Origin: an uncultured bacterium
GTDB lineage: Bacteria > Hydrogenedentota > Hydrogenedentia > Hydrogenedentales > CAILVY01
Direction: 5' to 3'
DNA: 64,000 nucleotides
Assembly: GCA_937951485.1 (NCBI GenBank)
Contig: CALEDJ010000034.1
Coordinates: 62,001-126,000 of the forward strand
In this document: positions 1,866-8,891 of the stretch, piece by piece
How the letters are laid out: each line of letters opens with the position of its first letter
How positions within the stretch are numbered: the first letter of the stretch is position 1
Made by a program: the position numbers and the translations under genes
Notes under the pieces: model-generated
Databases searched by the model: none
What the model was told of the DNA's origin: nothing
The model's input: only the letters and a program-made list of their open reading frames with translations

Positions 1866-1883
1866 ATGTGCGCAGGCGCACAT
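1866..1883. promoter_or_regulatory. 18-bp perfect palindrome, possible operator
   Basis: ATGTGCGC-AG-GCGCACAT is a perfect inverted repeat located 37 bases upstream of the -35 hexamer of the promoter that faces the first small peptide gene. Symmetry and position fit a dimeric regulator site. No regulator gene is adjacent, so this is a suggestion only. The rest of the 1643-2070 gap holds no supportable gene; a 34-codon frame at 1717 was rejected. Confidence 0.35.
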
Positions 1884-1919
1884 GAGCATGCGTAATATGC
1901 GCCCTCGTGATAATGCCGA

Positions 1920-1948
1920 TTGAATGGATGCGAAAGACTTGGTATACT
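1920..1948 (+). promoter_or_regulatory. Sigma-70-type promoter for the small peptide array
   Basis: TTGAAT at 1920-1925, a 17-base spacer, and TATACT at 1943-1948 give a near-consensus sigma-70 promoter. Transcription would begin near 1955 and leave an untranslated leader of about 115 bases before the ATG at 2071. The leader contains a short hairpin (TTGGA...TCCAA, about 1964-1980). Confidence 0.55.
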
Positions 1949-2070
1949 GTTCATACAGGATGGGTTGGAGGATGTATCCAACACCGCCGGAAGGAATCCC
2001 GGGAGTGCCGGTTTTTCAAGCGGCGGCGTTGAAACAATGGTCGGTCCCATAGAAGTAAGGAGAATAAAAA

Positions 2071-2199
2071 ATGAAGCACGTTCGTACTATCAGCAGAAAA
2101 CCCGCAAAGGCCGCTGACGTCACGATTGGCCAGGTGATAGCAGTGATTGCGGCGATTCTGGAAGTAATCGGCAGCGCATTGGTTTCCAAAAACGTCTAA
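2071..2199 (+). CDS. Small peptide A of the MKH-x3-IS array (42 aa)
   Basis: ATG 2071 is preceded by AAGGAG at 2057-2062 with eight-base spacing, and the frame closes with TAA at 2197-2199. The peptide starts MKHVRTISRKPAKAAD and continues as a hydrophobic helix-like stretch (TIGQVIAVIAAILEVIG) ending SALVSKNV. It has no Cys. The first nine residues match those of four more small genes immediately downstream, which is the main evidence that it is real. It has its own promoter and a probable terminator. I do not recognise the family. The layout (constant N-terminus, variable C-terminus, next to an RRE/SPASM-like protein and an exporter) suggests a precursor peptide with leader and core; that is inference. 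Confidence 0.65.
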   Translation: MKHVRTISRKPAKAADVTIGQVIAVIAAILEVIGSALVSKNV

Positions 2200-2204
2200 T
2201 TTCT

Positions 2205-2244
2205 GGACAGGCTTCTTTGCAAAAGGAAGAGAAGTCCCTTTTTT
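2205..2244 (+). terminator. Probable intrinsic terminator after peptide A
   Basis: GGAC 2205-2208 pairs with GTCC 2234-2237, and CTTCTTT 2212-2218 pairs with AAAGGAAG at 2222-2229 with one bulged base. Six Ts follow at 2239-2244. It lies six bases after the stop of peptide A and could make that gene the most abundant product of the array. Confidence 0.45.
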
Positions 2245-2349
2245 GTCGTTAAAGGAAGATGCGTTCGCTTATACGACACCAGAATGCATTGTCGGTTTCG
2301 CAACGCCAGCGGGTGCGATCTTCGGCAAGACATGGGAGGAAAAACGGCG

Positions 2350-2520
2350 ATGGCACATATGAAATCCATCACCCGACCGGTGATGGCCGCGAGCATGTGC
2401 GACGACATTCGCAGCGATTTCCAGGCGCGATTGTGTTTCGTGCTCGAGTTTCTCACCGGTTTCATTTTCCCGATAATTGAGGCATCACTCCAGGGCAAAT
2501 ATCCGTCCAATTCCAACTGA
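2350..2520 (+). CDS. Small peptide B of the MKH-x3-IS array (56 aa)
   Basis: ATG 2350 follows GGAGG at 2335-2339 with ten-base spacing. The start reads MAHMKSITRP, which aligns residue for residue with peptide A over nine positions (M-K/A-H-hydrophobic-basic-S/T-I-S/T-R). An in-frame ATG at 2284 gives a longer product but has no ribosome binding site and would bury the shared motif. The C-terminal part is hydrophobic and aromatic (CFVLEFLTGFIFPIIEA) and ends in a polar Ser/Asn tail. It holds two Cys, at about residues 16 and 28. Function unknown; proposed precursor peptide. Confidence 0.55.
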   Translation: MAHMKSITRPVMAASMCDDIRSDFQARLCFVLEFLTGFIFPIIEASLQGKYPSNSN

Positions 2521-2569
2521 AGCGGATGCCGTAAACCGGCCGGCCCCGGGAAGAAAAAGGAATGCACCC

Positions 2570-2689
2570 GTGAAGCGTCTGCGCCCTATTTCCAGGACGC
2601 CCAAGATTGCCGCGTCCGTCGCTCCCGAAGTGAAATTGACAATCATCGTGCAATTCATCGACATTTATCAGCAGAAAATGGGGTATTAG
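2570..2689 (+). CDS. Small peptide C of the MKH-x3-IS array (39 aa)
   Basis: GTG 2570 follows AAGGAA at 2557-2562 with seven-base spacing and ends at TAG 2687-2689. The peptide begins MKRLRPISRTPKIAAS, which fits the array motif, then continues EVKLTIIVQFIDIYQQKMGY, an amphipathic or hydrophobic helix-like tail. No Cys. A longer in-frame version from 2477 would bury the motif and lacks a good ribosome binding site. Function unknown; same proposed class as peptides A, B, D and E. Confidence 0.6.
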   Translation: MKRLRPISRTPKIAASVAPEVKLTIIVQFIDIYQQKMGY

Positions 2690-2731
2690 TCCCTGACGCG
2701 CGGCGTCCACGTCCGCTGGAGACCAGGTAGC

Positions 2732-2887
2732 GTGAAACATCTGCAATGTCTGACCAGACCGCCGGCGATCGCCAACCAGCCGACACCGGAGCAGAAACTG
2801 GCGTTTATTGAAGCGGTGCTTCGCATGTTCATCCCGATTGTGCGGAACAAGAATCCGCGCAATCCCGTGGAAACGACCTCTTCATAG
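2732..2887 (+). CDS. Small peptide D of the MKH-x3-IS array (51 aa)
   Basis: GTG 2732 has GGAGA at 2718-2722 with nine-base spacing; the stop is TAG 2885-2887. The start MKHLQCLTRPPAIANQ matches the array motif with L-T in place of I-S. After PTPEQKL comes a hydrophobic helix-like block (AFIEAVLRMFIPIV) and a polar tail rich in Asn, Arg and Ser. Peptides C and D share a P-E-x-K-L/Q-K-L turn before their hydrophobic block, which supports common descent. One Cys at residue 6. Function unknown; proposed precursor peptide. Confidence 0.55.
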   Translation: MKHLQCLTRPPAIANQPTPEQKLAFIEAVLRMFIPIVRNKNPRNPVETTSS

Positions 2888-2921
2888 GAAGAGGCGTGGA
2901 ACGCGCCCCCTGCGTTGTCGG

Positions 2922-2950
2922 TTGTAGTCGGCGCGGTAATCTGGTTTAAT
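2922..2950 (+). promoter_or_regulatory. Possible internal promoter for peptide E
   Basis: TTGTAG 2922-2927, a 17-base spacer and TTTAAT 2945-2950 resemble a sigma-70 promoter with a weak -35. Initiation near 2957 would give a leader of about 32 bases with GGAG at 2978-2981 before ATG 2989. It could drive peptide E and possibly the operon behind it. Confidence 0.35.
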
Positions 2951-2988
2951 ATGCGCCGGAAACAATTTTTCAGTGACGGAGTAGGACC

Positions 2989-3108
2989 ATGAAGCATATC
3001 AAGAAAATTTCGACGGTGCGGGCGGATGCGTTCACGGATTTCATGAATGCCATCTGGCGGGCTTGGCAGGATTTCCGCTACGCCAAGAAGAACGAAATCT
3101 ACGGCTGA
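2989..3108 (+). CDS. Small peptide E of the MKH-x3-IS array (39 aa)
   Basis: ATG 2989 has GGAG at 2978-2981 with seven-base spacing; the stop is TGA 3106-3108. The start MKHIKKISTVRADAF matches the first eight array positions but has Thr where the others have Arg. Its C-terminus differs from the other four: it is aromatic and charged (AIWRAWQDFRYAKKNEIYG), with two Trp and two Tyr, rather than aliphatic. It lies 82 bases before the first GNAT gene and is the copy nearest the processing operon. Function unknown; proposed precursor peptide. Confidence 0.6.
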   Translation: MKHIKKISTVRADAFTDFMNAIWRAWQDFRYAKKNEIYG

Positions 3109-3128
3109 CCGAGAATCCTTCGGGGCAG

Positions 3129-3146
3129 GGGGCGTCTGATCGCCCC
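3129..3146 (+). terminator. GC-rich hairpin between peptide array and processing operon
   Basis: GGGGCG-TCTGAT-CGCCCC is a perfect six-base-pair stem in the 82-base gap between peptide E and the first GNAT gene. There is no T tract, so partial termination or mRNA stabilisation is likelier than full termination. Such elements are common between precursor and enzyme genes in peptide operons, but the role here is inferred. Confidence 0.35.
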
Positions 3147-3190
3147 GATAGACCGCAGCCATCCCGGCCGGCGGTGGCGGGGCGTCATTC

Positions 3191-3721
3191 ATGATTCAAG
3201 GCATATACACCTGCATACGCACAACGGACCCGGACGATGCTCCGGCCCTGCACGGTCTGTACGACCTGCAACGGCCGCGCGCAGCATTGCTGGACATGCG
3301 CCGCGAGCCGATCATGCCCACGGTGGATGAATTGCGGGAGATGCTGGGCCGTAAAGAGGCAGTACGCGGCGCATTTTTCACCATTGAAAACAGAATGGGG
3401 GAAATAGTCGGGTTTTGCGGGCTGCGCAGCGTGAGCGCCGAGGCCCGCTTTGCGGAAGCCACCCTGATGATGTGTAAAGAATCGGATTGCGCCGGACCGG
3501 AGGCAAGCGAAGCCCTCGCATTTCTCCGCAGCCGGGGCTTCAACTGGTTGCGAATGCGCAAACTGGTCGCGCATTGCCTGGACCGTGAAACCGCCTTACG
3601 CGATGCTCTGCTGCGTCATGGGTTCCAGAGCGAAGGCGTACAGCGGGAGGTCTTTTACGCCGCAGGGCGGTGGCATAATCTCGAAGTGCTCAGCCTCTTT
3701 GCGGAAACCGCGGGCGAATAG
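3191..3721 (+). CDS. GNAT-family N-acyltransferase (RimJ/RimL-like), first of the operon
   Basis: A 176-residue GNAT-fold protein. The N-terminal strand and helix pattern (IRTTDPDDAPALHGLYD), the central strand around FFTIENRMGEIVGFCGLRS and the late block from LVAHCLDRETALRDALLRHG to the W-H-x-L-E ending all match RimJ/RimL-type GNATs. The usual acetyl-CoA loop (Q/R-x2-G-x-G/A) is not clear around residues 95-110, so catalysis may be weak. ATG 3191 lacks a strong ribosome binding site. The next gene starts 12 bases downstream. GNAT acyltransferases are known maturases in lipo-RiPP systems (goadvionins, selidamides); acting on the adjacent peptides is inference. Confidence 0.75.
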   Translation: MIQGIYTCIRTTDPDDAPALHGLYDLQRPRAALLDMRREPIMPTVDELREMLGRKEAVRGAFFTIENRMGEIVGFCGLRSVSAEARFAEATLMMCKESDCAGPEASEALAFLRSRGFNWLRMRKLVAHCLDRETALRDALLRHGFQSEGVQREVFYAAGRWHNLEVLSLFAETAGE

Positions 3722-3733
3722 AAAGGGAAAGCG

Positions 3734-4363
3734 GTGCCGTTTTCGACGGAGACATGGATACGCCGGGCGGACCGGGAAGATCTGGACACGGTGATCGGCT
3801 GGATGGACGATCCGGATTTCCAACGTTTTCTCTATGGTGATCCGGCGCGGTCACCCAAACAGATTCGCGAGCAGATCGTCTCCATGCTCGGCCGCACGGC
3901 GGGGCACACGATGCCCGGCGGCGTCTATCTCATCCTGGACTCGAAGCGGCATGGCCCGATTGGCCTGATTTCTCTCCAGAATATCAGTTGGCGCAACCGT
4001 TCCTGCAACATCGAGTTGTATATCGGCAATGCCGCCGCCCGCAGCCGGATAACCGCCGCCATTGCGATTTACCGCACACTGGAATACTGCTTCGATGAAC
4101 TCAACCTGCACCGCGTCGGCGCGATCATCTACGCTTTCAATACAGCGTCCTGGCGAATCTTCGAGAAGGCCGGCGCGGTGCGGGAACTGACGCTACGCGA
4201 CCACATCGTCCGCGACGGCCAGACCCACGACATGTACGGCTACGGCCTGCTCCGCCCGGAATTCGAGGCGCTTCGCGCGCGCTATCAACGCCAGTCCGAA
4301 GATGTTTCCCTCCGCGCAATGATTGAATATCTGGCGCGCGAGGAAACGGGTGCGCCGTCGTGA
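3734..4363 (+). CDS. GNAT-family N-acyltransferase, second of the operon
   Basis: A 209-residue GNAT. GTG 3734 follows AAAGGGAAAG. The sequence begins with the family pattern WIRRADREDLDTVIGWMDD. It has a central R-S-R-I-T-A-A segment in the place of the CoA-binding R-x2-G-x-G/A loop, and then the RimJ/RimL hallmark NTASWRIFEKAGA. The glycines of the loop are replaced, so CoA binding may be altered. The C-terminal 30 residues (RARYQRQSEDVSLRAMIEYL) extend past the usual fold. The stop overlaps the GTG start of the CPBP gene (4360), which indicates translational coupling. Likely role: acyl transfer to a peptide or small molecule of the cluster (inference). Confidence 0.8.
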   Translation: MPFSTETWIRRADREDLDTVIGWMDDPDFQRFLYGDPARSPKQIREQIVSMLGRTAGHTMPGGVYLILDSKRHGPIGLISLQNISWRNRSCNIELYIGNAAARSRITAAIAIYRTLEYCFDELNLHRVGAIIYAFNTASWRIFEKAGAVRELTLRDHIVRDGQTHDMYGYGLLRPEFEALRARYQRQSEDVSLRAMIEYLAREETGAPS

Positions 4364-5064
4364 GGATTCTTTTTTTCCTCTGCTTCGCCGCGTATGTCGT
4401 CCATACCATGCTGGCGAACCGGCGGGACGATCCCGCGCACCGGCGCGTCACGGGGGCGATGCTGCTGATCCAGACGCCGCTCTTGTTGTTGGCCTGCCAC
4501 TTCGCCTGGCAGCGCGGCGTGTTCTCGCGCGATTTGGTTTCCCCGCTGCATATCGGGGCGGGGCTGCTGATCGGCCATGTCATCTTTGCCTGCTCGCTGT
4601 TAATCACCCACGGTGTCTGGCGGGATGCGGCGGCGCATTTCGTGCAGGTCGGCCCCTTCCTTCGCTTTCTCGTGGAGGCGCCGATGATCATGCTGCGCTT
4701 TATCACTGTCAGCATCACGGAAGAAATCATCTATCGCGCGGCGGCGCAGCCGTTGCTGACGGCGTGGACGGGGCGGCCCCTGCTTTCCATTGTGATTGTG
4801 GCGCTCGCCTTCGCCGTTGTACACAAGCATTTTCTCAGGAACCCGGTGGTGCAGTCCGGGGAATTCCTGGCTTTTTCGCTGCTGCTGGGCGGGCTATACT
4901 ACTGGACAAACAGCCTCAGTCTCGTGGTGGCGGTTCATGTCCTGCGCAATCTGGAGAGTCTGTACCTGGAGTATCTGATGAAGACGGAAGAACTGGGCGA
5001 CGCCCAGCGCGCGCTGAATGCGCTGGAGCAGACCTATCAACGCCTGCCCGGAGAACGCGTATGA
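4360..5064 (+). CDS. CPBP-family intramembrane metalloprotease
   Basis: A 234-residue polytopic membrane protein starting at GTG 4360, overlapping the previous stop. It carries the three CPBP (Abi/Rce1-type) motifs: E121-E122-x3-R126 in SITEEIIYR, F151-x3-H155 in FAVVHKH, and H193-x3-N197 in HVLRN. Several hydrophobic segments fit six to eight membrane helices. CPBP proteins are glutamate-type intramembrane proteases; in bacteria many sit in bacteriocin or peptide clusters, where they take part in maturation or self-immunity. Here the gene lies between acyltransferases and an exporter and overlaps the ABC ATPase by ATGA, so leader removal or immunity is a reasonable inference. Confidence 0.85.
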   Translation: MRILFFLCFAAYVVHTMLANRRDDPAHRRVTGAMLLIQTPLLLLACHFAWQRGVFSRDLVSPLHIGAGLLIGHVIFACSLLITHGVWRDAAAHFVQVGPFLRFLVEAPMIMLRFITVSITEEIIYRAAAQPLLTAWTGRPLLSIVIVALAFAVVHKHFLRNPVVQSGEFLAFSLLLGGLYYWTNSLSLVVAVHVLRNLESLYLEYLMKTEELGDAQRALNALEQTYQRLPGERV

Positions 5065-6110
5065 ACCGGGAATATCTGGTGGAATTGGACCGCGTGGACA
5101 AAGCCTTCGTCACCCGCCATTTTTTTCACATTGATGAGGATACGCGCACCCGCCGCATCTACAACCGCCGCCTGGTGCGCGCCGCCGACGCCATCACCTT
5201 CGGCATCCGTCCCGGCGAAATCTTCGGCCTGCTCGGACCGAACGGCGCGGGCAAGACCACCACGGTGAAGATGGTGTCGGGACTCGTGCGGCCGGACGCC
5301 GGCGCGGTCTACGTGGACGGCATGCATGTGGAGAAAAAGCGTAAGAAGGTGCTGCGCAAGGTGGGTGTGGTGCTGGAGGGCACGCGCACAAGCATGTGGC
5401 CGCTGACGCCGCTGGAAAACCTCATGTACTACGGCAACCTCAAGGACGTGCGCGGCAAGGTGTTGCGGGACCGCGCCCACGAATTGCTGGATTTCATCGG
5501 CCTCAAAGAGAAGAAGAACGTGCAGGTGCGGCGGCTTTCGCGCGGCCAGAAACAGAAACTGGCCATCTGCATTGCCCTGATTGCCGATCCCCTTGTGCTC
5601 CTGCTCGACGAACCCACCACCGGCCTCGACGTGCAAAGCAGCCGCGCCATCAAGGACAAGATTCTCGAACTCACCCGTCAGCAGGGGCGTTCCGTGCTGG
5701 TGACGACGCACGACATGCACGTCGCCCAGGAGTTGTGCGACCGCATCGGCATCATCAACAAAGGCAAACTCATCGCGTGCAAACCCACTGCGGAACTGCT
5801 GGACCTCTTTTCGGGGCATGTCTTTGTGTTCAAACTGGACCGGGCACCGGACCCGGCCCGTGTGCGTACCGTCCCCGGCGTGCTGGATTGCACCGTGGAA
5901 CAAAGCAACGACGGGCCGGCGCTGGTCTTGCGCGTGACGGATGAACCGGCACAGCGATCCGAGGGTTTTTATCGCGTCATAGAACTGCTGCGCGAGGGCG
6001 GCTTTCAACTCCGCAGCCTGACCCAGCGCCAGCAGAACCTGGAAAGCGTTTTTCTGCAATTGACGGGCGAAATCGTGGAAGAGCGACCGGAATACACTGG
6101 AGAGGAGTAG
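5061..6110 (+). CDS. ABC transporter ATP-binding protein (ABC-2 exporter type)
   Basis: A 349-residue ATPase starting at ATG 5061 inside the stop of the previous gene. It has Walker A GPNGAGKTT (about residues 59-67), a signature written LSRGQ, Walker B LVLLLDEPTTGLD and a switch His in LVTTHD. A 35-residue insertion before the first core strand (HIDEDTRTRRIYNRRL) and a 90-residue C-terminal accessory region are typical of drug, antibiotic or polysaccharide ABC-2 exporters. It pairs with the permease that starts two bases after its stop. Likely role: export of the cluster product, or immunity against it. Confidence 0.92.
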   Translation: MNREYLVELDRVDKAFVTRHFFHIDEDTRTRRIYNRRLVRAADAITFGIRPGEIFGLLGPNGAGKTTTVKMVSGLVRPDAGAVYVDGMHVEKKRKKVLRKVGVVLEGTRTSMWPLTPLENLMYYGNLKDVRGKVLRDRAHELLDFIGLKEKKNVQVRRLSRGQKQKLAICIALIADPLVLLLDEPTTGLDVQSSRAIKDKILELTRQQGRSVLVTTHDMHVAQELCDRIGIINKGKLIACKPTAELLDLFSGHVFVFKLDRAPDPARVRTVPGVLDCTVEQSNDGPALVLRVTDEPAQRSEGFYRVIELLREGGFQLRSLTQRQQNLESVFLQLTGEIVEERPEYTGEE

Positions 6111-6111
6111 C

Positions 6112-6948
6112 ATGGGTTTCTTTCTTGTGATGAAGGCCGAGATTGTGCGGTCGTTCATCATCATGCGGCGTTACTGGTTCCGTACCATCACCGGCATGAT
6201 CCTCGGCTACGGGATGCTCATGGTACTGATCGCGGGCTTCATCTACAGCCGCCCCGTCGTGGAAGAAAGCATGAGCCGTTTTGACGATCCCACAGCGGCG
6301 ACGAACTTCGTGCTGGGCTTCATCATCGGCATGTTCGCTTTCGGCGTGGTAGGCATGTTCACGCAGGGCATCCAGGAAATGGCGCAGACCGGCGTGCTTG
6401 AGCAACTCTGCATGAGTCCGCACGGCCTGATCTTCAATTTCCTGGCGCGCACGGCGGTAGGTTCGGTGTACACCATCCTCTCCTCCGGCGTCATGGTGTG
6501 GCTGGTGACGTTGACCGTGGGAGGGCGTCTGTATTTCGACGCTGCAGCCGTGTTGATCTTATTGACCCTGACTTTCGTCAATCTTCTTGGATTCGGATTC
6601 ATGGTCGGCGGGCTGGTGCTGGTGTTCAAGCAGGTGGGCCAGATCGCGATTCTCCTGCGCATGGGGCTGTTCGCGTTGGCCGTCTTTGCGCGCGAAGAGA
6701 TGCTGCACCAGGGCTGGGCGCTGGCCGCCGTCACCCACGCCCTGCCGGTCACCGACGCGGCCATCTGCCTCAAGTATGTGCTCATCCAGGATCAGGGCCG
6801 GCTCACAGGCGATTTCATGCCCGTCTATGCGCATCCTTCGTTCTTCTGGTTGATTGTGAGTTGCATGGCCTGGACGGCCATCGGCATCGTCGTCTTTGAA
6901 TTCATGGAACGCTGGAGCCGCTCCAGAGGCACCCTGGGAGCATACTGA
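6112..6948 (+). CDS. ABC-2 type permease
   Basis: A 278-residue integral membrane protein with about six hydrophobic segments: residues near 20-42, 60-85, 103-135, 145-170, 185-200 and 235-258. The order and the long central helix pair are typical of ABC-2 permeases such as DrrB, and the gene follows an ABC-2-type ATPase with a one-base gap. The stop overlaps the start of the next gene as TGATG. It most likely forms a homodimeric channel with the upstream ATPase. Substrate unknown; the context favours a peptide. Confidence 0.88.
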   Translation: MGFFLVMKAEIVRSFIIMRRYWFRTITGMILGYGMLMVLIAGFIYSRPVVEESMSRFDDPTAATNFVLGFIIGMFAFGVVGMFTQGIQEMAQTGVLEQLCMSPHGLIFNFLARTAVGSVYTILSSGVMVWLVTLTVGGRLYFDAAAVLILLTLTFVNLLGFGFMVGGLVLVFKQVGQIAILLRMGLFALAVFAREEMLHQGWALAAVTHALPVTDAAICLKYVLIQDQGRLTGDFMPVYAHPSFFWLIVSCMAWTAIGIVVFEFMERWSRSRGTLGAY

Positions 6949-8891
6949 TGGCCGGGCCGGCGCTCCACCGCTATGAACGCGACGGCAGACGCTACGCCGT
7001 GGATCCGGAAACCTGTTTCTGTTTCGAGTGCGACGCGGTGTCCTGGGACGTCCTGGAGCATTACCCGCATGCGACGCTGAACCGCATCCTGCATCTGCTG
7101 CAGGACCGCCACCCCGAAAAGGAAATCCTGGAGGTGGCGGGGGAACTCGAATGGCTGCGCGCCGCAAAGTCCATTTTCACCGTGCCGAAGCAGGAAGACT
7201 ACGCCAAACGCTTCGAGATTGAGCGCGGCCTGAAAAGAATGACTGTGCTGTGCGCGGGCAGTGCGCAAACGCAGGCATCCCGACGATGGTTCGCGCGGCG
7301 TGGTGACAATAGCGCGAATCGCGGCGGCGAAGACGCCGTTTCCGATCGCCTGCTGGCGGCGGCGCAACTGCTGCTGGCGAGGTCCGGCAAGCAGCGGGAA
7401 CTGCGCCTCGAATGCGTCTGGCCCCGGCCGCCCGCGGACCCGGCAGTCATCACCGCCTGCTGTCGCAAGGTCCGCGCCCTGGCGCGGCTGGCGGACAAAG
7501 AGGTCCGGATTTCAATCATGATAGACCCCCTGCCCGCCTCGGCGGATGTGTTTCGCGGCCATGATCTCGCGGCTTCCCTTGAAATCAGCGGCGACATCGG
7601 CGATGACGCCGCCGATGCCCTGCGTCAATTCCTGCGCGCCGCGGCGCGCGGGCCGGAGGCGGCGGCGAAAGCCGCGCCGGACGCGCCCGGAATGGGCATC
7701 CGCATCGTGATTCGCCCCGGTCATCCCGACTTCGCGGGCGTGGTACAGGCATGCCGCGCCGCCGGCGTGGGGCACATCGAACTGGATTTGGAGGGGGCCT
7801 ACGTCGCGCATCCGGCGCTGGACCCGGCGGCGATGGCGAAGACGCTGGAGGCGGTCGCGCTGGATTACGCGGAGGAACTCGTCCAGGGACGCTATTGGCG
7901 GCTGGAGCCAGTCGCGGGCCTGTTCGCGCGCATTTATCATGGGACGCCGCAGGCCCGCACCGACGACGCGGGGACTTATGCGCTGGCCGTGGCGGAAGAC
8001 GGCGGCATTTATCCCGGGCGGCACTTCATTCCGTGGGACGCCTTCCGCGCCGGGGCGCTCGACGAGGCAACCATCGTCGAAGCGGCGCTCCGGCGTTTTG
8101 ACGATGCAGGCGCGCTCACCACGCGGCCATGCCTGCGCTGTTGGGCGCGGAACCTGTGCGGCGGCGGCGCGGCGGCGGTGCACCAGGCGCTCAGCGGTTC
8201 CTTCCGCGCGCCGCATCCGCCCTGGTGCGACGCGCAACGAGGCTGGATGGAGGCGGCCATCGCCGCATTCAACCGGCTTGCCTCGGAGGGCGTCAATTTC
8301 GCCCGCATCCACGAGGCGATGCGCCCCGCGAAACGTCCGGGCCTGCTTGCCATGGTGCGCGCCGCCTTCCGCATGCACATCGGCCTGCGCCCCATCGAGG
8401 AGGCCGACGCGCCGCTGCTGGCCAAATGGGAAAACTGGAACGACGCCGCCTATTTCACCTTCAATGAACACGGCCTGCTCATGGCCTCGCAGTACGACCG
8501 GGAAATGGATGCGCTGCATCCACTCGGCATCGAACAGGAATTCCTGTTGCTGCGCCGCAAAGGCGACCCGTTCGGGCTGCTGAAAATCCGGCCCGAAGCG
8601 ATGCCCGGCGTGGCCATGGCTTGGATTTACTTCCGCAACCCCCGCGACTACGCCGAGGAAAAAGTCCGTACCTCGTTCCGGTACATGCTGCGCGAAGCCC
8701 TCGCCCGGCAGGGTATCCAGCGCATTCTCATCCCCGCCGGCCCCGGTGAACACGCTTTGGCCGATTTCCTCGCCGCCGTCGGCTTTGCGCCCTGCGCCAC
8801 GCTCCGCGAGGCCCTCTACCTCCACGGCGCATACCATGATATGTGCCTCTTTTCATTCATGTTTGACGAGGAGAAGATGGCCCCGCGTTGA
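6948..8891 (+). CDS. RRE / degenerate radical-SAM / SPASM-like protein fused to a GNAT domain
   Basis: A 647-residue protein translationally coupled to the permease. Residues 5-78 look like a PqqD/RRE peptide-binding domain as found at the N-terminus of radical SAM peptide maturases (YERDGRRYAVDPETCF...VLEHY). Residues 95-340 fit a radical-SAM-like barrel in length and strand pattern, but the CxxxCxxC motif is absent; the expected site reads TVLCAGSAQTQASRR. Residues 343-445 resemble a SPASM domain (GGIYPGRHF, then PCLRCWARNLCGGG) and keep C395-x2-C398-x5-C404 and C427, while other SPASM Cys are lost. Residues 476-640 are a GNAT domain (IGLRPIEEADAPLLAKWEN). I infer a peptide-binding scaffold that presents small peptides to an acyltransferase. 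The domain calls are by eye and need profile searches. Confidence 0.65.
   Translation: MAGPALHRYERDGRRYAVDPETCFCFECDAVSWDVLEHYPHATLNRILHLLQDRHPEKEILEVAGELEWLRAAKSIFTVPKQEDYAKRFEIERGLKRMTVLCAGSAQTQASRRWFARRGDNSANRGGEDAVSDRLLAAAQLLLARSGKQRELRLECVWPRPPADPAVITACCRKVRALARLADKEVRISIMIDPLPASADVFRGHDLAASLEISGDIGDDAADALRQFLRAAARGPEAAAKAAPDAPGMGIRIVIRPGHPDFAGVVQACRAAGVGHIELDLEGAYVAHPALDPAAMAKTLEAVALDYAEELVQGRYWRLEPVAGLFARIYHGTPQARTDDAGTYALAVAEDGGIYPGRHFIPWDAFRAGALDEATIVEAALRRFDDAGALTTRPCLRCWARNLCGGGAAAVHQALSGSFRAPHPPWCDAQRGWMEAAIAAFNRLASEGVNFARIHEAMRPAKRPGLLAMVRAAFRMHIGLRPIEEADAPLLAKWENWNDAAYFTFNEHGLLMASQYDREMDALHPLGIEQEFLLLRRKGDPFGLLKIRPEAMPGVAMAWIYFRNPRDYAEEKVRTSFRYMLREALARQGIQRILIPAGPGEHALADFLAAVGFAPCATLREALYLHGAYHDMCLFSFMFDEEKMAPR

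Follow-up and report, generated by a model that had tools for sequence, protein, structure and literature searches.

Positions 1866-8891 of the DNA considered here, a 64 kb stretch (hereafter the window; G000:C34:62001-126000) of a 4.55 Mb assembly from an uncultured bacterium of Candidatus Hydrogenedentota, raise the question of what is made by five very small genes and the compact operon that follows them. The operon comprises six genes in the order GNAT1-GNAT2-CPBP-ABC ATPase-ABC permease-fusion (3191-8891; ABC, ATP-binding cassette), which from GNAT2 onward overlap by 1-4 bases or lie 1 base apart. Its last gene encodes a fusion protein composed of an RRE (the recognition element of ribosomally synthesized and post-translationally modified peptides, or RiPPs), a radical S-adenosylmethionine (SAM) barrel, a SPASM region, and a GNAT domain. 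A preliminary description of the window had pointed to five short genes with a shared N-terminal pattern ahead of a tight operon and had called the whole a RiPP-like system of unrecognized combination. All of these features are present and that designation stands; the interval itself begins slightly early, with the putative promoter at 1920-1948 and the first peptide at 2071. The operon is probably, although by no means certainly, a RiPP-like system for leader-guided maturation and export of peptides, and it probably belongs to the core traits of an uncultured phylum rather than being an antibiotic cluster.

The first point to be settled is whether the small frames are genes. The leader pattern used, M[KR][HR][ILVTM]xx[ILVM][ST] opening frames of 30-120 codons, was counted in the 64 kb window and related loci as the basis of a chance estimate. 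It is found in 86 small open reading frames within 62.6 kb upstream of GNAT1 in the related loci and in none within 990 kb of sequence from elsewhere, both strands counted; the window contains only four matches, all among the five small genes. The pairwise ratio of nonsynonymous to synonymous change (pN/pS) is well under 1 in every class of peptide (pooled, 0.28; class E, 0.05-0.24), a sign that the peptides evolve under purifying selection. Because the leader pattern is so far beyond chance and pN/pS so low, the five frames are judged to be real genes. The small size of the frames and their mixture of ATG and GTG starts might recall an operon leader or other regulatory sequence, but this explanation has almost no probability given 169 homologous frames under purifying selection, the class-specific protein conservation of which persists even where the frames have moved elsewhere in the genome.

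Profiles sort the 169 peptides into four classes, A (63), B (28), C (30), and E (48). The leader, MKHIxxIS..PxxA, is common to all of them, with the columns M, K/R, H, I/L/V, x, x, I/V/L, and S/T. The core of class A is hydrophobic and mostly ends near KE, that of class B reads C...SDxQAxLCF, that of class C reads PEVKLTFI...NKxPxNP, and that of class E reads RADAFTxFxNAxWRAWxDFxxxKKNE; two conserved cysteines are found in class B and none in classes A, C, and E. For peptide E, no secondary structure is predicted in the first 13 residues and a helix is predicted over residues 14-38. The preliminary description had spoken of divergent C-termini, which holds insofar as the cores are class-specific, although the peptides constitute four orthologous classes and not merely divergent paralogues. 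The cassette order is usually A-B-C-E; E closes every one of the 42 cassettes, and the f11 clade contains mostly classes A and E. Short genes with a shared leader and variable cores, the hallmark of RiPP precursors, are thus present in four core classes. Pfam searches with five peptides returned no match at E<=1 other than a chance one to Erp_C, with no NHLP or Nif11 leader, and NCBIfam searches with four of the five returned no precursor family at E<=1.

The leader also occurs apart from the cassette. Solitary leader genes are seen at L095:1619 and 1836, L096:1707, L097:1924, L099:2041, and in L100 (minus strand, 2142 on that strand). These genes have the same MKH/MRH leader, good ribosome sites, and quite different cores (e.g. 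MRHVKPVSVAKANAEKLNGWNTFWVGFGHSWQEAWGKNDNGK), with no maturation genes alongside, and the joining of one leader to other cores supports a modular leader. In genera g4, g6, and g9, the entire cassette is located elsewhere in the genome, with its order kept and E still last. These displaced cassettes (L077-L083) read A-B-C-E(-E), and E is often duplicated with the first copy shortened. Their neighbors, in the loci compared, are common to close genera only, and therefore provide no functional guilt by association.

The fusion protein shows what kind of machinery accompanies these peptides. A profile of 20 fusion homologues matches CteB (5wgg) over residues 4-433 with an E value of 3e-37. Similarly, the predicted model of the fusion (mean pLDDT 81.5) overlays on 5wgg with a Z score of 27.3 and a root-mean-square deviation of 3.6 for 387 aligned residues, spanning the RRE, barrel, and SPASM regions (residues 3-445), and residues 472-645 match RimL-type acetyltransferases with a Z score of about 16. 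The N-terminal domain of CteB is an RRE that binds the leader of CteA as a strand (PMC8326336, PMC6231123). The N-terminal domain of the fusion matches this RRE by both profile and fold, in agreement with the RRE-like domain first proposed from the window.

The cysteine content of the fusion, counted in 48 distinct sequences, departs from that of an active enzyme. The CxxxCxxC motif is absent in 48/48. The positions of the auxiliary clusters, Aux I and Aux II, were mapped via the CteB-profile alignment and the ligand assignment of anSME, in which Aux I is bound by C255, C261, C276, and C330 and Aux II by C317, C320, C326, and C348 (PMC5715301). At the Aux II positions, C395, C398, C404, and C427, all 48 fusions have cysteine (CX2CX5C...C is kept), and at the Aux I positions cysteine is found in four (C330 position) and one (C276 position) of the 48; the seven-cysteine motif by which SPASM radical SAM enzymes bind two auxiliary clusters is not present. 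With no CxxxCxxC, Aux I mostly lost, and Aux II invariant, the protein is best described, from its residues, as a pseudoenzyme that has lost canonical radical chemistry and keeps one cluster or metal site. The earlier SPASM-like assignment agrees with the CteB-type fold but missed both the dead radical SAM barrel and the selective retention of one cluster site. A CxxC pair (C25, C28) within the RRE strand is common to all 48 sequences. Because some of the genomes that carry the fusion also encode intact relatives with a full SPASM domain, the QhpD/SCIFF-like proteins L092 and L093 (CNLACRYC), an enzyme of their kind was probably its ancestor. Their SPASM signature, CRxCWARYFCGGGC, closely resembles the CxRCWARNLCGGG of the fusion, but CNLACRYC and a complete set of cysteines remain in these relatives, unlike in the fusion.

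All three GNAT domains, those of GNAT1, GNAT2, and the fusion, belong to the RimL/SpeG type. The canonical [QR]GxG loop for coenzyme A (CoA) is seen in 0/33 GNAT1, 1/36 GNAT2, and 0/48 fusion GNAT sequences, and GNAT2 keeps the loop arginine, mostly without GxG. As [QR]GxG is nearly absent, canonical use of CoA by the three GNAT domains is doubtful, and the acylation suggested in the preliminary description is less well supported than the rest of it. A true GNAT-acylated pathway similar to that of the selidamides, in which fatty or acetyl groups would be placed on the conserved core lysine and lipopeptides exported, is accordingly a minority possibility, about one that might be given a single chance in four. 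Each operon has two or three separate GNAT genes in addition to the fused GNAT, GNAT2 resembles the amine acetyltransferase SpeG, a lysine beyond residue 22 is present in 165/169 peptides, and RiPPs with acylated lysine are known (PMC9505594). Lysine is a common residue, however, and hence weak evidence; in addition, the CoA loops are altered as described and the peptides match no known RiPP precursor family.

The remaining proteins are more conventional. The EExxxR motif of the CPBP protease is found in 34/34 homologues, and in the protein of the window the downstream histidine motif of this family is intact as well; the ATPase and permease are similar to exporters of the ABC-2 type. A working scheme can be drawn from these parts. 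The cassette would make several short peptides with one N-terminal recognition sequence and class-specific cores. The RRE of the fusion, the fold of which is that of CteB, would bind the common leader as an added β-strand in the manner in which CteB binds CteA. The dead radical SAM/SPASM scaffold, holding at most one cluster or metal, may present the core to the fusion GNAT and to GNAT1 and GNAT2. GNAT2, and perhaps the others, might then modify a core residue, most plausibly the conserved C-terminal lysine, by use of an unusual donor or loop geometry. The CPBP protease, with its motifs intact, would act in the membrane to remove the leader or trim the core, and the product would be exported by the ABC-2 transporter.

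Three observations weigh against this scheme: in g4, g6, and g9 the cassette and the operon lie apart; the CoA loops are altered in all of the GNAT domains; and the RRE strand differs from that of CteB by a CxCxxC-type motif, such that leader binding could be lost. An alternative with a similarly low probability to that of acylation is that none of the GNAT-fold and pseudo-radical-SAM parts is catalytic. The operon would then be a line for chaperoning and exporting membrane-active or surface peptides that stay unmodified, with the fusion as an adaptor passing peptides that bear the leader on to the CPBP protease and ABC transporter. The radical site dead in every fusion, the lost CoA loops, the intact protease motif, and the hydrophobic or amphipathic cores are all consistent with such a line. 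In contrast, the invariant residues of the fusion GNAT (R481, D487, W494, W497, E519, and E531) suggest a constrained binding or active site, and it would be unusual for three separate GNAT-fold proteins to be kept merely as chaperones. The leader-guided maturation scheme can be extended to a more specific proposal, which is held only tentatively: a new leader-guided class in which a pseudo-radical-SAM/SPASM-GNAT fusion serves a fixed set of peptides that are jointly matured and exported as a signal or envelope component, as a phylum-defining core trait.

Most RiPP loci are patchy accessory weapons. The distribution of this operon is of a different kind. A scan of 84,980 species genomes found 26 loci, and all but two of the records are named Hydrogenedentota. 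One of the two, L002 (JAACEL010000057.1), is recorded as a Nitrospiraceae bacterium; it carries the operon and has an apparent counterpart contig in a phylum genome of family f11 (G045), and its name is probably wrong. The second has an apparent counterpart contig in the phylum genome G032. The fusion protein is present in 62 of 68 phylum genomes (36 of the 38 of high quality), and the class E profile finds matches in 54 of the 68 and in 0 of 318 genomes outside the phylum. In those 318 genomes, the fusion has partial matches only, through the SPASM region, and plasmid records likewise show only partial SPASM matches, mostly to peaB. All six genomes without the fusion are also without class E; five of these (G022-G026) belong to family f4, in which five of six genomes lack both, an apparent joint loss.

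Gene order from GNAT1 to the fusion is identical in all complete loci, whereas the flanking genes differ, and homologous small genes adjoin the fusion operon in related genomes. Given these small genes and the RRE match of the fusion, neither of the two results that the preliminary description had named as refuting it was obtained. In G001 (genus g2), the operon contig is without GNAT1, and the cassette and GNAT1 are at the end of another contig. Some operons of the f11 clade (L003, L022, L026, L068, L069, L072, and L073) contain an extra GNAT2-like gene between GNAT1 and GNAT2. A tree of the ATPase, permease, and GNAT2 recovers the families f1, f2, f5, f8, and f11 as clades with support of at least 0.99. 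Because this tree follows the genome families, the operon is interpreted as a vertically inherited core locus of Candidatus Hydrogenedentota, a status that the preliminary description missed and that argues against a strain-specific antimicrobial.

These findings bear on a bacteriocin-plus-immunity operon in the manner of the sporulation killing factor, with peptide, SPASM/Twitch protein, protease, and ABC pair, for which the part types are the same as those of skfA, B, C, E, and F (PMC8172795). A near-universal locus whose tree is vertical, whose cores are conserved within each class, and whose pN/pS is low is unlike an arms-race weapon, and SkfB is an active radical enzyme, which the fusion is not; as a full account of the locus, this explanation is improbable, and a bacteriocin role is unlikely given the phylum-wide one-to-one conservation. 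Since the peptide classes are conserved one-to-one across the phylum, the product of the proposed maturation and export system would more probably serve as a signal, a component of the envelope, or some other housekeeping factor than as an antibiotic.

Comparison with known systems places the operon near, but outside, several of them. Similar to the CteB/SCIFF (ranthipeptide) maturases, the fusion comprises an RRE, a radical SAM barrel, and a SPASM fold, and SCIFF is likewise broadly conserved in a large lineage, Clostridia, a breadth that has been taken as an argument against an antimicrobial role (PMC8326336). Unlike CteB, the fusion has no CxxxCxxC, has lost the Aux I ligands, and has an extra CxxC in the RRE strand and an extra C-terminal GNAT; neither the six cysteines of a SCIFF peptide of ~45 residues nor the CX3CX2C of its maturase is found. 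The skfABCEFGH operon of Bacillus subtilis also combines a small precursor, an RRE-containing SPASM/Twitch-type protein, a putative protease, and an ABC export pair (PMC8172795, PMC6231123), but its radical enzyme, a sactisynthase, is active and its precursor single, whereas here the enzyme is dead, GNATs are present, and the precursors fall into four classes. In the selidamide pathways (phaeornamide, with the GNAT PhaN), a GNAT-fold protein is again encoded together with export genes in an operon for peptide maturation (PMC9505594). Those pathways have an NHLP leader, a lanthionine synthetase, and an arginase, in contrast to the non-canonical CoA loops and pseudo-radical-SAM fusion observed here; neither the canonical CoA pyrophosphate loop nor a known precursor family (NHLP or Nif11 leader) of selidamide-type systems is seen.

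No description of the operon was found in the openly accessible literature searched. The roles of widespread cases, SCIFF in Clostridia among them, are unclear, and the operon would be another such case, phylum-wide, in which a dead radical enzyme appears to be kept as a one-cluster scaffold alongside several co-conserved peptide classes. The role of core RiPP-like peptides would thereby become directly testable, the 169 natural precursors and 48 fusions are a resource for biochemistry, and the operon can serve as a marker trait for the uncultured phylum.

The features of the locus are collected in Table 1. The start of peptide B was set at 2350, in place of 2359, because the orthologues in L084 (MRHLKAVGRQPALAASMCDD) and L085 align over that start.

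Table 1. Coordinates of the locus in the window, with the matches for each feature (HMM, hidden Markov model).
Feature	Position	Strand	Remarks
Putative sigma-70-like promoter, TTGAAT-17-TATACT with TG before the -10	1920-1948	+	122 nt before peptide A
Peptide A, MKHVRTISRKPAKAADVTIGQVIAVIAAILEVIGSALVSKNV, hydrophobic class	2071-2199	+	ATG; class A HMM E 2e-19; orthologues in L084, L085
Peptide B, MAHMKSITRPVMAASMCDDIRSDFQARLCFVLEFLTGFIFP..., two-Cys class	2350-2520	+	ATG; class B HMM E 2e-21
Peptide C, MKRLRPISRTPKIAASVAPEVKLTIIVQFIDIYQQKMGY	2570-2689	+	GTG start; class C HMM E 5e-17; orthologue in L084
Peptide C', MKHLQCLTRPPAIANQPTPEQKLAFIEAVLRMFIPIVRNKNPRNPVETTSS	2732-2887	+	GTG start; class C HMM E 7e-15; orthologues in L084, L085
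Peptide E, MKHIKKISTVRADAFTDFMNAIWRAWQDFRYAKKNEIYG	2989-3108	+	ATG; most conserved class
GNAT1, GNAT fold, non-canonical CoA loop	3191-3721	+	Pfam Acetyltransf_3 1.6e-7; profile match to 1nsl and SpeG
GNAT2, RimL/SpeG-type, GTG start	3734-4363	+	Pfam 1e-18; SpeG profile match 1e-15
CPBP (Rce1-like) intramembrane protease	4360-5064	+	PF02517 1e-12, above cutoff; EExxxR and His motifs intact
ABC ATPase, DrrA-like	5061-6110	+	PF00005 9.5e-29; TIGR01188 (DrrA-type) 4e-70, below its cutoff
ABC-2 permease	6112-6948	+	PF12698 1.7e-4, below its cutoff; present in every complete operon
Fusion protein, RRE, pseudo-radical-SAM barrel, one-cluster SPASM, and GNAT, 647 aa	6948-8891	+	
Fusion, RRE-like domain, residues 1-86, strand ETCFCFECD	6948-7205	+	
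Fusion, pseudo-radical-SAM barrel, about residues 94-340, without CxxxCxxC	7227-7967	+	
Fusion, SPASM region, about residues 341-445	7968-8282	+	TIGR03974 match
Fusion, C-terminal GNAT domain, residues 472-645	8361-8882	+	RimL-type Z 16.4

The position of the promoter element is suggestive; its pattern, with 3 matches versus 2.1 in shuffles, is by itself not above shuffle expectation. An Rfam scan over the peptide region gave no match. An anti-phage defense system was also considered and set aside, PADLOC matching the ABC protein only through generic ATPase similarity. In the related loci compared, neither the downstream mutS nor the protein encoded just upstream is conserved as an operon neighbor; the latter (308-1642) consists of an N-terminal part resembling a helix-turn-helix and a C-terminal 4Fe-4S dicluster domain.

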